From contig NZ_KB913032.1 of assembly GCF_000384215.1 (NCBI RefSeq), positions 6,719,605 through 6,783,604 of the forward strand: a stretch of DNA of 64,000 nt, read 5' to 3'. Source of the DNA: Amycolatopsis alba DSM 44262. GTDB lineage: Bacteria > Actinomycetota > Actinomycetes > Mycobacteriales > Pseudonocardiaceae. The notes below the pieces were generated by a model that was given only the letters and a program-made list of their open reading frames with translations, was not told the DNA's origin and made no database searches. This document shows, one piece after another, positions 7,875 through 39,846 of the stretch (positions within the stretch are counted from its first letter, which is position 1; each line of letters begins with the position of its first letter). The translations under genes and the position numbers were made by a program.

Positions 7875-8648
7875 TCAGCCGTCGAGAGTCTTCCGGAGCA
7901 ACGGAGCGAACGCCGCGGCCTCCGAGGCGAAACCGCCGTGGTCACCGGGGAAATAGGCCGGCTCGACCCCCAGGCGACCGGCGGCGAGGACAGCGGCCTC
8001 GTGCGCGGGCTGCCCGGCCGAGGTCTCCCCGACACCGACGACGATCCGCGTCCCGGAGGCCTTCAGCGCCTCGTAGTCGGGCCGGAAGCCCCCGATGATC
8101 TTCATCAGATGCACGACGAAAAACTCCATGTTCTTCCGCATCTCCGGCGAGAGAGCACCTTCGCCCGCCTCGAAACCGGCCTCGGCCATGAACTTCGCCA
8201 CCGCCGCCTCGATGCCGTGCTCCCGGTGGATGTGCAGCAGCTCGTCGGGATCGATGTCGGGCTGCCCGTCCAGCAGATACGTCAGCGGCGGTTCGTGCGC
8301 GAAGAGCGTCCGCACCCGTCCCGGCCGGCGGGTGACGAGGTCGAACGCCTGCATGCACCCACCGCTGGACGCGAAGATCACCGCGGGTTCCTCGCTCACA
8401 CTGTCGAGCAGGCGCAGCGCGTCGTCAGCGTGGACCTCGACTCGTTGTTTCTCATCGGGATCGTCGAGGATGCTGCGGGAGATCCCGCGCGGGTCGTAGG
8501 TGATCACCGTGTAGTGCTCCGCGAGCGGCCCCGTGATCGGGGCGAACATGCCGGAGTCCGCGGCCCCGCCGGGAATGCACAGCAGGACCGGCCCGCTGCC
8601 GGTGACGGTGTGGTGGAGCCGGGCGCCGGGGACGTCGAGCATGGGCAT
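7875..8648 (-). CDS. Alpha/beta hydrolase
   Basis: This 257-aa enzyme starts at ATG 8648 (MPMLDVPGARLHHTVTGSG), which has AAAGGGG 6 nt upstream. The oxyanion/HG region reads LLCIPGGAADSGMF, the nucleophile elbow is FASSGGCMQAF (Ser in the ASSGG context), and a late acidic/His pair is in PAYFPGDHGGFASE. These place it in the alpha/beta-hydrolase fold; the substrate is unknown. The TetR/sigma genes upstream are on the same strand, with a 71-nt gap to the ECF sigma gene that ends at 8720, so read-through from the glycosyltransferase-sigma unit is possible. Confidence 0.88.
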   Translation of the reverse strand: MPMLDVPGARLHHTVTGSGPVLLCIPGGAADSGMFAPITGPLAEHYTVITYDPRGISRSILDDPDEKQRVEVHADDALRLLDSVSEEPAVIFASSGGCMQAFDLVTRRPGRVRTLFAHEPPLTYLLDGQPDIDPDELLHIHREHGIEAAVAKFMAEAGFEAGEGALSPEMRKNMEFFVVHLMKIIGGFRPDYEALKASGTRIVVGVGETSAGQPAHEAAVLAAGRLGVEPAYFPGDHGGFASEAAAFAPLLRKTLDG

Positions 8649-12065: not shown

Positions 12066-12313
12066 GCGGCAAGGACCGTTCCACTGAGGGGCAAGGCGAA
12101 GCTGTCGTGCTCGCTCATCGGCGTGCCGGCTTCGGGTGGTGCGAAAGCCACTTTCGCAACCTTCAACGTTGCGAAAGTGGCTTTCGCAACGTCGCCGGCC
12201 ACCAGCCCCCCGACCCGATGCGGGCTTTCACGACACCCGAAGCCGGCAGATACGCCAGCGGTCGAGCACGACACGTTTGCCTTACCTCTCAATAGAACCG
12301 TCCTTGCCGCTCA
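12063..12313. repeat. 251-bp nested inverted repeat spanning stop codon to stop codon
   Basis: Both flanking convergent genes end with TGAGCGGCAAGGAC, and from there two ~88-nt arms (about 12063-12150 and 12226-12313) are imperfect inverted copies of each other, sharing for example GTCGTGCTCG and GCCGGCTTCGGGTG. Inside lies a second, smaller palindromic pair (GCGAAAGCCACTTTCGC at about 12139-12155 and its mirror at about 12172-12188). The whole could fold as one giant hairpin and act as a two-way terminator. The inner unit belongs to a repeat family also seen at 39727. Confidence 0.8.
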
Positions 12314-29938: not shown

Positions 29939-31153
29939 ATGCCCCGTTCAACCAGCGACGTGCAAGCATTCGAAGCCCGCGCGACCGACGCCGAACTCGA
30001 CGATCTGCGCGCACGATTGGCCGCGGCGCGACTGCCGGAAGCCGAGACGGTCCACCGCCCCGCACCCGACCCACGCCGATGGGACCAGGGCGTCCCGCTC
30101 GCCGACCTCGTCGATGTCGTGAACTACTGGCGCACCGAGTACGACTGGCGGCCGTTCGAAGAGCGCCTCAACGACATCGGACAGTTCCGCACGACCATCG
30201 ACGGTCTGGGAATCCACTTCCTGCACCGCCGGTCCACGCGCGCCGATGCCACTCCGCTGATCCTCACCCACGGCTGGCCAGGCAGCGTCGCCGAATTCAT
30301 CGACATAGCGGACGAACTGGCCGATCCCCAAGACTCGGACACACCGGCGTTCCACGTCGTGATTCCGTCACTGCCAGGATTCGGCTACAGCGACAAACCC
30401 GCCACCACCGGGTGGGGGACCGAAAAGATCGCGGCCGCATGGGTGGACCTGATGGGAAGGCTCGGCTACGACAAGTTCGTGGCACACGGGGGAGACTGGG
30501 GAGGCAACATCACCACGGTTCTCGCCGGCCGGTTCCCGGAACACGTCCTCGGCATCCACACGACCTTCGCGGAGGGACTACGCGGACTGACGACGGATGG
30601 GCTGACCGCAGTCGAACGCAGGTGGACCGAGGAAACGCACGACTTCTGGCACCACCGCGCGGCGTACGCGAAGCAGCAGGCGACTCGGCCTCAGACCATC
30701 GGCTACTCACTCGTCGACTCACCGGTCGGGCTTCTCGCCTGGATCCTCGACAAGTTTGCCGAGTGGACGGACACCGAAGACAGCCCGTTCGAAACCATGT
30801 CCAGGGACAGGATTCTCGACGACGTCACTCTGTACTGGCTGACGCGAACCGGTGCGTCGTCGGCCCGCATCTACTACGAAAGCCACAACTCGCTGGACCC
30901 CGAACTTCGAGTCGACGTCCCGTCGGCGATCACCATGTACCCCCGCGACATCGAGAAGTATCCGCGTCCCTGGGCGCAGCAGCGCTACCGGCAGATCGTT
31001 CGCTGGAGGACGCCCGAAGCCGGGGGACACTTCCCGTCGCTGGAGATGCCCGAGTACTTCGTCAAGGACCTGCAAGAAGGCCTCGCGGCCGTTCTGTCTG
31101 CGTCCACCACACGTTTTGAAGCGCCGGGGAGCGCTGACATCTCGACTACTTGA
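29939..31153 (+). CDS. Epoxide hydrolase (EHN alpha/beta hydrolase)
   Basis: This 404-aa enzyme starts at ATG 29939 with GGAGG upstream. The N-terminal EHN domain is FEARATDAELDDLRARLA ... PDPRRWDQGVPLADL. The catalytic core has HGWPGS (oxyanion), VAHGGDWGGNI with the nucleophile Asp in GGDWG, ring-opening Tyr candidates near YWLTRTGASSARIYYES, and EAGGHFPSLEMPEYF with the catalytic His. It hydrolyses epoxides to diols; homologues act on juvenile-hormone-like or xenobiotic epoxides. Its TGA stop (31151-31153) lies inside the dif site. Confidence 0.94.
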   Translation: MPRSTSDVQAFEARATDAELDDLRARLAAARLPEAETVHRPAPDPRRWDQGVPLADLVDVVNYWRTEYDWRPFEERLNDIGQFRTTIDGLGIHFLHRRSTRADATPLILTHGWPGSVAEFIDIADELADPQDSDTPAFHVVIPSLPGFGYSDKPATTGWGTEKIAAAWVDLMGRLGYDKFVAHGGDWGGNITTVLAGRFPEHVLGIHTTFAEGLRGLTTDGLTAVERRWTEETHDFWHHRAAYAKQQATRPQTIGYSLVDSPVGLLAWILDKFAEWTDTEDSPFETMSRDRILDDVTLYWLTRTGASSARIYYESHNSLDPELRVDVPSAITMYPRDIEKYPRPWAQQRYRQIVRWRTPEAGGHFPSLEMPEYFVKDLQEGLAAVLSASTTRFEAPGSADISTT

Positions 31154-31175
31154 CATAATGTACATTATCGGCACT
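31148..31175 (-). other. dif: Chromosome dimer resolution site (dif)
   Basis: Read on the minus strand, the 28-bp site has XerC-side arm AGTGCCGATAA, 6-nt centre TGTACA and XerD-side arm TTATGTCAAGT. It agrees with the actinobacterial dif consensus as I know it (CCGATAAT core, ACATTATGTCAAGT XerD half) at essentially all conserved positions, differing only at the outermost XerC-side bases. XerC/XerD act here to resolve chromosome dimers at division. It marks the replication terminus region. The site overlaps the last codons and stop of the epoxide hydrolase gene. Confidence 0.88.
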
Positions 31176-31264: not shown

Positions 31265-31523
31265 GCGCCACGCCGGACGCGGACGCGGCTCCCTTCAGTT
31301 CTCCCTGAGCCCGGCTGCCCGCTGGCCCTCAAGATGACCGCGGACGCCCCCGAGGACGCAGATCGGGCGTCCGATCACCCAGCCTCAATACGTCACTGTG
31401 ACGAATCAATATGGACATCTCGGCCGTCGAAGATCAACGAGGACGTCAGCCTTGGCTCACTTCGCCGACTCGGCCAGCCCTGCCGGTCACCTTGCGACCT
31501 GACGTCGCCAGGCTGGACCCAGT

Positions 31524-31578
31524 TGTCGCGAATGGGTCGTTCAGGACGAAAAGTGTCAGGAGTGACCCATTCGCGACA
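31524..31578. repeat. Intergenic inverted repeat, 15-bp arms
   Basis: TGTCGCGAATGGGTC (31524-31538) is perfectly mirrored at 31564-31578 around 25 nt that include TCAGGACGAAAAGTGTCAGG. I see no promoter element in it. It looks like a dispersed intergenic hairpin of the kind common in this genus. Together with the hairpin at 31226 it lies in the 510-bp non-coding space between dif and the recombinase gene; the rest of that space shows no coding pattern. Confidence 0.7.
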
Positions 31579-31636
31579 CTTCGGAAGACGGCGAGCGGGC
31601 CGAGATCCCCCGCGAGGGGTTTCCGGACCCATCACT

Positions 31637-31672
31637 CCGTTTCATGCATAATCACTATTATGCATGAAACGG
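31637..31672. other. Perfectly symmetric dif/lox-like recombination site candidate
   Basis: The right arm TTATGCATGAAACGG is mirrored exactly on the left around a 6-nt asymmetric spacer, TCACTA (16 bp paired if the flexible centre is taken as 4 nt). The inner part CATAA-spacer-TTATG matches the inner part of dif sites, and arm plus 6-nt spacer is the geometry used by Xer recombinases. It begins 461 bp from dif and overlaps the most upstream ATG (31664) of the tyrosine recombinase gene. It also contains TATTAT (31656-31661), a possible -10 box, so a bound recombinase could shut off its own promoter. Confidence 0.6.
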
Positions 31673-31702
31673 AATATAACCCAGTGTAAGACTGTCGGTG
31701 CC

Positions 31703-32683
31703 ATGCGGTACAAGATTCCCATGAGGGTTTCCGAGGCACAGCAAGCCTTTTTCGCCGCACGTCGTCCCCGTAAGGATTCTCCTCACACCACCGACGCGTA
31801 CCGTCGCGACCTCGCGGGCATCACCACTCTTCTACTCCGCGAGCAGGGCCGCTCCCCTGACGAACTCACTGTCGAGATGCTCACCGCTCAGGCCCTTCGC
31901 AACGCCTTCGGCGCCTTCGCGGACACCCACGCCAAGAGTTCGGTCTTGCGCGCTTGGTCGACCTGGAACCAGTTCCTCACCTTCTGCGTGTCCGACGGGT
32001 TGCTCGCGGGCAATCCGATGGGCGCGGTCGCCCGGCCGAAAGCCCCACCGTTGACGCCGAAACCGTTGCGGGGCGAGGAAACCCCGGAGCAGCTGCTCGC
32101 GGCCGCCGCGGACGGTTCGCGCCGGACGCGGGATCCCTGGCCGGAGCGGGACGTCTTGGTGATCGCGCTCGGGCTCGTCGCCGGACTGCGCGCCGCGGAG
32201 ATGCGAGCGCTGACGACGCGGTCGCTGGTCGGCCGCCAGGGTGAGATGCGCCTGCACGTCCACGGCAAGGGAAGTCGCGATCGGTCCATTCCGGTGCAGC
32301 CGATCATGGAGAAGATCATCGAGGAGTATCTGGCCTCTTGCCGCCGTCGCTTCGCGCAGCAGCGGTTCGGGCCCTCCACTCCCCTCCTCCGGGATCGTGC
32401 CGGCGAGCCGATCGGCCGCGGCGCGCTGGAGTACCTGGTCAAGTCCTGCTACCGGTGGGCGGGCCTGCACGACCGCGTGCCGGTCGGGGCGAACCTTCAC
32501 GCGTTGCGGCACACGTTCGCGACACGGCTGGCCGAGGATGGGGCGACGGCGTCGGAGATCATGGCGCTGCTGGGGCACGCGAGCCTGGCGACCAGTCAGA
32601 ACTACATCGAGGCGACGGGGCGTGAGCAGCGGGCGGCGGCCGCGAGCAACCGGACGTATCGGGCGCTGGACGGGATCGTGTAG
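31703..32683 (+). CDS. Tyrosine recombinase (Xer/integrase family)
   Basis: This is a complete site-specific recombinase of about 326 aa. Starts at 31664, 31703 or 31721 are possible, none with a Shine-Dalgarno; I chose 31703 because 31664 lies in the palindrome. The SAM-like core-binding domain is at the N-terminus (SPHTTDAYRRDL ... WSTWNQFLTFC). Numbered from 31664, the catalytic set is complete: Arg176 (GLRAAEM), Lys202 (GKGSRDRSIPV), His279 and Arg282 (LHALRHTFATRL), His305 (LLGHASL) and Tyr314 (SQNYIEA). No phage or plasmid genes, att repeats or tRNA lie beside it, so it is an orphan recombinase next to chromosomal dif. GC content is normal for the host. Confidence 0.93.
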   Translation: MRYKIPMRVSEAQQAFFAARRPRKDSPHTTDAYRRDLAGITTLLLREQGRSPDELTVEMLTAQALRNAFGAFADTHAKSSVLRAWSTWNQFLTFCVSDGLLAGNPMGAVARPKAPPLTPKPLRGEETPEQLLAAAADGSRRTRDPWPERDVLVIALGLVAGLRAAEMRALTTRSLVGRQGEMRLHVHGKGSRDRSIPVQPIMEKIIEEYLASCRRRFAQQRFGPSTPLLRDRAGEPIGRGALEYLVKSCYRWAGLHDRVPVGANLHALRHTFATRLAEDGATASEIMALLGHASLATSQNYIEATGREQRAAAASNRTYRALDGIV

Positions 32684-39792: not shown

Positions 39793-39846
39793 GGTGATCG
39801 TGAGTGGCGATTCGGGTTCTAACCCGAATCGCCACTCACGATCACC
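39793..39846. repeat. Perfect 26-bp palindrome
   Basis: The left arm, GGTGATCGTGAGTGGCGATT and six more nt, is mirrored exactly at 39821-39846 with only 2 nt at the centre, giving an almost loop-free 54-nt cruciform between the LysR and DUF4406 genes. The GTGAxTGGC start resembles the palindrome inside the gene at 57031. Confidence 0.9.

Follow-up and report, generated by a model that had tools for sequence, protein, structure and literature searches.

Cre/loxP of phage P1, in which one recombinase acts on long perfect inverted repeats around a short asymmetric spacer (8 nt in loxP), serves plasmid multimer resolution. According to excerpts of PMC11724359, Cre/loxP can also replace dif in an FtsK-dependent manner, and plasmid R27 of Enterobacteriaceae combines two redundant dimer-resolution systems, one built on a tyrosine recombinase that it encodes itself and the other on a Xer site. 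Among chromosomal systems, XerL/dif of the Legionellales is described in parts of PMC9765430 as one recombinase with uninterrupted inverted repeats near the terminus; its gene may lie >400 kb off, and a relative is found with its site on a Coxiella plasmid. XerS/difSL and XerH/difH likewise combine one recombinase with a site at the terminus that is often near the gene; in the same source and excerpts of PMC5357621, these systems replace XerCD, and their sites are only partly symmetric.

The locus analyzed here lies in an Amycolatopsis genome, in a stretch of 64,000 nucleotides that was examined as a whole (the window), and consists of a perfect dyad and a tyrosine recombinase gene beside chromosomal dif. 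A dedicated terminus site is paired with one recombinase, as in the XerS, XerH, and XerL kind, but the pair does not take the place of XerCD/dif. As far as XerL is described in the excerpts, both systems have one recombinase, uninterrupted inverted repeats at the terminus, an unlinked gene, and a plasmid relative; however, XerL fills in for missing XerCD, whereas the genomes studied here retain XerC/XerD-type genes together with a normal dif, within a few hundred bp of which the second site lies, and the two systems are likened by description, not by protein relationship. The single recombinase and the long perfect inverted repeats around a short asymmetric spacer are shared with Cre/loxP, from which the present locus differs in sequence and spacer length and in being chromosomal and beside dif. 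R27, a plasmid of Enterobacteriaceae, was likened by the description of its two systems. Overall, the locus looks most like a Cre/lox- or XerL-like resolution system alongside XerCD-dif, presumably recombining at the dyad. No description of such a system was found in the open-licence PMC full-text literature. Thus, as far as could be seen, a third system kept beside dif is new, while one recombinase with one terminus site is a known kind.

Features of the window around dif

The features are summarized in Table 1. A search allowing up to 3 mismatches found a single dif in the genome of the window, and its reverse complement agrees with the Frankia alni dif quoted in an excerpt of PMC3025954. 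The GC skew of the window flips from negative to positive at ~32 kb, where dif sits, and the terminus position was judged from dif and this turn. The XerC arm of actinobacterial dif was presumed from its likeness to E. coli dif. The core CATAAT-N4-ATTATG was found three times in the window at up to 2 mismatches (31154, 31647, and 56506, the last with 2 mismatches), compared with 0.02 expected in shuffles.

Table 1. Positions of dif, the dyad, the recombinase gene, and a small palindrome in the window.
Feature	Position	Strand	Details
Chromosomal dif, 28 bp	31148-31175	+	Arms ACTTGACATAA (31148-31158) and TTATCGGCACT (31165-31175), spacer TGTACA
Small palindrome ACGTCACTGTGACG (ACGTCAC-N-GTGACG)	31390-31403		Between dif and dyad
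Dyad, candidate recombination site, 38 bp	31636-31673		Left arm 31636-31651, spacer TCACTA 31652-31657, right arm 31658-31673
Tyrosine recombinase	31703-32683	+	326 aa from 31703; start may be 31721; longest ORF 31664-32683

The initial annotation had drawn attention to a perfect palindrome with dif-like inner bases and a 6-nt spacer about 460 bp from dif. The palindrome is real, the 36-bp form noted then being the inner part of the 38-bp dyad (TCCGTTTCATGCATAA-TCACTA-TTATGCATGAAACGGA) with its perfect 16-bp arms, and the distance from the end of dif to the start of the dyad was measured as 460 bp. The dyad and dif share the inner bases CATAA-N6-TTAT and differ in the outer arm bases, and the dyad is symmetric where dif is not. 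Therefore, one recombinase can occupy all four places of a synapse. As a plain perfect inverted repeat, the dyad has 17-nt arms (31636-31652 and 31657-31673) with 4 nt between them, compared with a longest perfect arm of 9–11 nt in eight simulated 64-kb sequences (first-order Markov). It is not singled out by length alone, because the window has two longer hairpins and one equal. The dyad is single-copy in the genome of the window, in which no second copy flanking the recombinase gene was found.

The perfect hairpins of the window, at 39793-39846 (26-nt arms), 12140-12188 (21-nt), and 2149-2187 (17-nt), are perhaps terminators. An imperfect 24-nt inverted repeat (TGTCGCGAATGGGTC...GACCCATTCGCGACA) was also seen at 31524-31578, and no further copy of its core was found in the window at up to 1 mismatch. 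Protelomerases, which act at linear ends, have symmetric targets; a protelomerase site was considered and rejected as the spacer of the dyad is not symmetric.

The symmetry of the arms was examined across relatives using 98 sites, of which 80 were picked by a consensus built from the window and its nearest relatives and 18 by complementarity, so that the picking favours symmetry to some degree. In the 70 distinct arm pairs, arm positions 1–4 and 7 were invariant. Position 5 was complementary in 57 pairs compared with 35.3 in shuffles, with both sides changed in 23; position 9 was complementary in 44 (32.8 in shuffles) and position 6 in all 70 (64.3), while complementarity at positions 11, 12, 14, and 15 was not clearly over the shuffles. 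The arm bases of the dyad thus change symmetrically across relatives. Self-complementary spacers numbered 0 among 80 sites, which had 17 distinct spacers and are too weak a sample to weigh as evidence of asymmetry. One relative (G008, locus L004) has the spacer TAGTGA, the exact reverse complement of the TCACTA of near relatives such as L001, between identical arms; one reading of this is a one-step inversion, through the recombinase or through template switching at the palindrome.

Symmetric arm changes would also suit a hairpin, and another terminus function, such as an RNA hairpin or a landmark for terminus organisation, was considered. This is very unlikely, since the dyad occurs in step with the recombinase gene whether or not the two are linked, and the Rfam search of the window was empty. 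A perfectly symmetric dyad could also be a binding site at which strands are not exchanged.

The recombinase open reading frame is complete and matches Pfam Phage_integrase. Its catalytic residues are R163, K189, H266, R269, H292, and Y301 (326-aa numbering), and this R-K-H-R-H-Y set was invariant in 21 aligned homologues. The gene had been proposed to be complete, which it is, and to start at or just after the palindrome, which was revised: the first ATG, at 31664, falls within the palindrome, but homology begins later, so 31703 or 31721 is a likelier start, and the palindrome therefore ends ~30–50 bp ahead of the gene. The structure model was middling (pLDDT 77.9, pTM 0.54), and its best fold matches were XerA, XerH, and XerD, with Cre ranking behind these. 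The protein is a simple tyrosine recombinase of Xer-type fold with two domains and no arm-binding domain.

Against the NCBIfam models, the recombinase scored below the cut-offs for XerC (149.8 against 335.15), XerD (123.1 against 329.6), and XerS (55 bits against 267). Elsewhere in the same genome, one protein scored 342.6 bits with the XerD model, above its cut-off, and a second XerC/XerD-type protein reached 310.7 for XerC, itself under the strict XerC cut-off of 335.15; the window recombinase is neither of them. In a tree that held one XerC row and was midpoint-rooted for drawing only, the 42 rows of the recombinase family were split from the XerC/XerD rows by a 98/96 branch, so the suspicion that this is a recombinase apart from XerC and XerD was borne out by phylogeny. 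Compared with XerC/XerD-dif, the system therefore shares the fold class, the inner core, and the terminus location, but differs in this separate branch, in scores below the cut-offs, in the symmetric arms, and in the use of one recombinase. Moreover, XerC and XerD of the window's genome end in a common tail, AHPRA, that the recombinase family lacks; thus, its contact with FtsK, if any, need not match that of XerC/XerD. The dN/dS ratio was 0.011–0.138 in the 12 closest pairs, and the gene is under purifying selection. These pairs exclude L095, a frame with a stop, which is included in the all-pairs median of 0.154 (up to 3.894).

Position and distribution of the dyad in Pseudonocardiaceae

Named genomes were scanned, and of 221 loci the best 80 were retained, belonging to Amycolatopsis, Kutzneria, Lentzea, Saccharothrix, Umezawaea, Goodfellowiella, Solihabitans, Actinosynnema, Kribbella, and one record labelled Streptomyces. 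The top match to the dyad consensus was 20–26 of 26 in all 80, and the second-best match shown was at most 17 and often dif. One locus was cut by a contig end; in each of the other 79, dif lay upstream on the strand of the gene with the dyad between. The gap between dif and the dyad had a median of 449 bp (230–613 bp in 76 loci; 834, 1167, and 4191 bp in three). The gap between the dyad and the gene was 21–4584 bp (median 38 bp), and in seven of the 80 loci the gene lay 1.2–4.6 kb from the dyad, with the dyad still 253–520 bp from dif. Similarly, in 39 genomes of other genera with both coordinates, the dyad was always on the TTATCGG-arm side of dif, at a median of 514 bp (257–1100 bp in 38, ~3.3 kb in one). 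The longest gaps were those of G075 (3.3 kb) and L065 (4.2 kb). In nine of the 39, the gene was 143–1077 kb away on the same contig, and the dyad was 319–607 bp from dif. The linkage to dif was covered by these 79 loci and by 39 family genomes of the 167 gene bearers.

The far-off gene was found in a second clade (~50% identity) and in G081. Distant genes of this clade retain part of the downstream neighbourhood of the window gene, which suggests that dif and the dyad left together in a rearrangement; no palindrome was found near these genes in the regions read. The central result is that the dyad belongs with dif rather than with the gene: it requires a genome that has the gene, at whatever position, and a dif nearby.

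As the dyad lies just upstream of the gene in the window and at many loci (the median gap of 38 bp), it could be regarded as the operator of an autoregulated recombinase gene. However, gaps of up to 4.6 kb with the dyad staying near dif, together with the nine genomes with a distant gene, contradict this as the main function. Thus, the dyad is not simply an operator of the gene, and that role is extremely improbable, while regulation in some species as a side effect is possible. The initial annotation had offered a self-regulating third Xer; a third recombinase with its own site was supported, and self-regulation does not fit a dyad that stays by dif with the gene hundreds of kb off.

Empty sites were found in the same genus. 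The zinc-finger-like (ZF) and RPF/LysM genes of the window also follow dif in G011 and G021, at a distance of ~285 bp. Next come MFS and TK in G011 and TK in G021, and neither dyad nor recombinase stands between dif and the ZF gene. In the case of G013, the dif-to-ZF distance is 4.1 kb, likewise with neither dyad nor recombinase. An element similar to the small palindrome in Table 1 lies between dif and the next gene in both empty-site genomes (L149, L151), and this palindrome belongs to the dif neighbourhood. At the eight loci checked in Kutzneria, Kribbella, Lentzea, and Saccharothrix, these downstream neighbours of the window are missing and dif, dyad, and gene are kept.

The co-occurrence of gene and dyad was determined in 297 Pseudonocardiaceae genomes, with the gene called at E up to 1e-35 and the dyad at up to 2 mismatches. 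Both were present in 166 genomes, the gene only in 1, the dyad only in 2, and neither in 128 (Fisher p 1.5e-81, which ignores shared ancestry). The gene was thus found in 167 genomes, from 23 of the 46 sampled genera, and the dyad in 168, while 130 genomes had no gene. In G126, the one genome scored as gene only, a dyad with 3 mismatches lies ~550 bp from dif; the dyad-only cases, G061 and G253, are stray 2-mismatch matches on contigs other than those of the best dif candidates. Loss of the palindrome in homologues keeping the recombinase would have spoken against a pairing of the two, but the dyad was present in 166 of 167 gene bearers at up to 2 mismatches and in the remaining one at 3. In the genomes compared, the association of recombinase, palindrome, and dif that had been suspected from the window was upheld, in that the dyad stays with dif and co-occurs with the recombinase, the gene being sometimes displaced.

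Within the genus of the window, the recombinase was found once each in 33 of 36 genomes (own included), the same 33 carry the dyad, and G011, G013, and G021 have neither (dyad at up to 2 mismatches). In genus g44, G145 has both, and G080 and G117 have neither. Within these genera, gene and dyad come or go together. All 60 relatives searched gave a XerD-family match, and 57 gave at least two. Genomes bearing the dyad and recombinase retain dif and XerC/XerD-type genes. The earlier statement that actinobacteria use XerC and XerD encoded elsewhere needs amending for these families, which have such genes elsewhere and an extra recombinase too.

Two side observations concern single records. L058, titled Streptomyces sp. 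SID13031, has a Kribbella-like gene and dif spacer and is possibly a misnamed genome. In Saccharothrix luteola, the dif-dyad-gene locus occurs twice with equal spacings (L105 on Scaffold11 and L106 on Scaffold22), which is either an assembly duplicate or a real terminus duplication.

Relatives outside the family and on plasmids

The gene was found in 4 of 396 genomes of a phylum sample, own included. For a Micromonospora orthologue with 57% identity (G049, placed there through named relatives among the matches listed), the dyad precedes the aligned start of the gene by 19 bp and dif lies ~475 bp upstream, the dyad being on the opposite side of dif compared with Pseudonocardiaceae; G043 of family f9 is similar. 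The gene of Kribbella, a genus of another order, was nested among those of Amycolatopsis and Kutzneria (forks 98/92 and 100/97), and its locus lies beside dif with spacers of its own. This gene arrived by horizontal transfer, ending beside dif.

Relatives with <60% identity were found on 59 plasmid records of Mycobacterium, Rhodococcus, Mycolicibacterium, Dietzia, and Prescottella, at 33–42% identity among the matches listed. Fourteen plasmid loci, with relatives at 33–41% identity, were examined. Nine of them have a dyad with the same inner core no more than 1.4 kb from the gene, that of L221 being weak; the other five have no dyad near the gene, a threshold-passing match in L225 being discounted, and L160 and L224 have an IS just upstream. 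The dyads of the Rhodococcus plasmids have different outer arms (ttgctaSataa) and are still symmetric. The plasmid relatives carry gene and dyad with no convincing dif. A dif-like site downstream of mycobacterial plasmid recombinases (L156, L157, and L160) was rejected, as it matched 12–13 of 16 arm positions against a background of 11–12 and the plasmids are related.

Some loci carry more than one dyad. The Rhodococcus aetherivorans plasmid pN2 (L223) has the dyads ttgctagataa and gtgatggataa 385 bp apart upstream of the recombinase. A 199-kb plasmid contig of G042 has two dyads 17 kb apart (L146 3709 and L147 4894), of which only the second adjoins a recombinase gene, and a chromosomal partial relative in the same genome (L148, G042:C1) is a 262-aa ORF that matches the first two thirds of the query and has its own dyad just upstream. 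In G210:C55 (L215), a plasmid-like contig that also has a dif, a perfect dyad at 8033-8060 and a 2-mismatch one at ~11395 are separated by 3.36 kb, and each dyad follows a different member of a pair of paralogous HTH genes.

Clean empty sites, the horizontal arrival in Kribbella (again beside dif), and relatives on 59 plasmid records would all suit a mobile element at dif, with dyad and recombinase as a selfish module, or what remains of an integrated plasmid, inserted beside dif and lost in one piece. Such a function is decidedly unlikely, because each genome has a single copy and a single site, the dyad stays at dif when the gene is not beside it, the protein is under purifying selection, and neither phage records (at E 1e-20) nor viral contigs yielded a relative. 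The same evidence disfavours, as a present function, a resident dif-targeting element reduced to its recombinase, which the initial annotation had listed, although the horizontal move into Kribbella and the plasmid relatives temper this; a mobile-element origin is possible. Two more specific candidates were rejected. A phage or integrative-element integrase does not agree with the searches of phage records (E 1e-20) and viral contigs that gave no relative, the single dyad in the window's genome, and an empty site that lacks only dyad and gene, and an IMEX does not agree with one dif in the window's genome and a recombinase that is not flanked by dif copies.

One contig of G210, 175,859 bases long, encodes a ParA-like domain, a coupling protein of the TraG type, and a conjugation protein that shares 91% identity with its counterpart on an Amycolatopsis plasmid. 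The contig has a full-armed dif whose spacer, TCTATG, differs from the TGTACA of the chromosome. A perfect dyad lies 1.3 kb from this dif, on the side that it also occupies in the chromosome, and its spacer differs as well (TGAGCA against TCGCTA in the chromosome). The recombinase gene is present just once in G210. This contig appears to be a plasmid-like replicon carrying both sites. Its closest likeness, the plasmid of Amycolatopsis AA4, was examined whole and has neither dif nor dyad. That plasmid (NZ_CP024895.1) encodes a 498-aa tyrosine recombinase of its own, and a dif-core site (ATAA-N6-TTAT) lies ~200 bp upstream of it, at 252187-252214; the two may be another pair of site and recombinase.

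The two sites together on the G210 contig, the near-constant distance between them (the medians of 449 bp in 79 loci and 514 bp in 39 genomes), and the constant side of dif in 39 of 39 family genomes could indicate a composite dif, at which the dyad-bound recombinase is an accessory or partner of XerCD (a topological filter, a synapsis aid, or an alternative activator) and strand exchange at the dyad is secondary or absent. The accessory sequences of the plasmid sites cer and psi adjoin the XerC arm, as described in excerpts of PMC11724359. However, the dyad is on the other side of dif in Micromonospora (G049) and family f9 (G043), the gaps of G075 and L065 depart from a set distance, an accessory role would not require conserved catalytic residues, and the plasmid relatives have gene and dyad with no convincing dif. 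This role was consequently judged unlikely. A related version, in which XerCD-dif and the dyad form a coupled locus at a set distance and the pair is copied onto large plasmids with different spacers, is doubtful but deserves somewhat more credence. In this version, the dyad system would synapse or license dif, or act in sequence with it and independently of FtsK, and the plasmids' own spacers would let each replicon recombine only with itself.

Proposed role and implications

With a probability of roughly 0.62, the dyad is the site of the neighbouring recombinase, and the pair is a single-recombinase resolution system at the terminus beside dif. In the proposed mechanism, four copies of one recombinase would occupy both symmetric arms of each of two sister dyads. 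Cleavage at the edges of the 6-nt spacer would be followed by strand exchange, to which the asymmetric spacer would give a direction. A chromosome dimer would thereby be converted into two monomers, alongside and in addition to XerCD at dif. Binding and recombination at the dyad, with dimer resolution as the product, are suggested by comparison with the known systems. A dyad near dif would lie where terminus DNA is last handled at division, and this closeness may allow the two sites to be delivered together, either through FtsK or through their place at the terminus. With XerCD and dif intact, the need for a second resolution system is not obvious, and 130 of the 297 family genomes do without the gene. 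Among the three readings first proposed from the window, a resolution system acting with dif is the best supported, although we infer recombination itself.

The locus explains a conserved "orphan integrase" that annotation has left nameless. As it is a new, apparently self-contained recombinase with a short symmetric site, it may be applicable to the genome engineering of antibiotic producers. Known one-recombinase systems had been taken to replace XerCD, whereas here a second system seems to be kept beside a working dif, with a range that covers 23 of the 46 Pseudonocardiaceae genera sampled as well as Micromonospora and, through transfer, Kribbella. If dimers are resolved at the dyad, the questions would be why multigenomic, branching actinomycetes need two systems and what fixes a resolution site beside dif.
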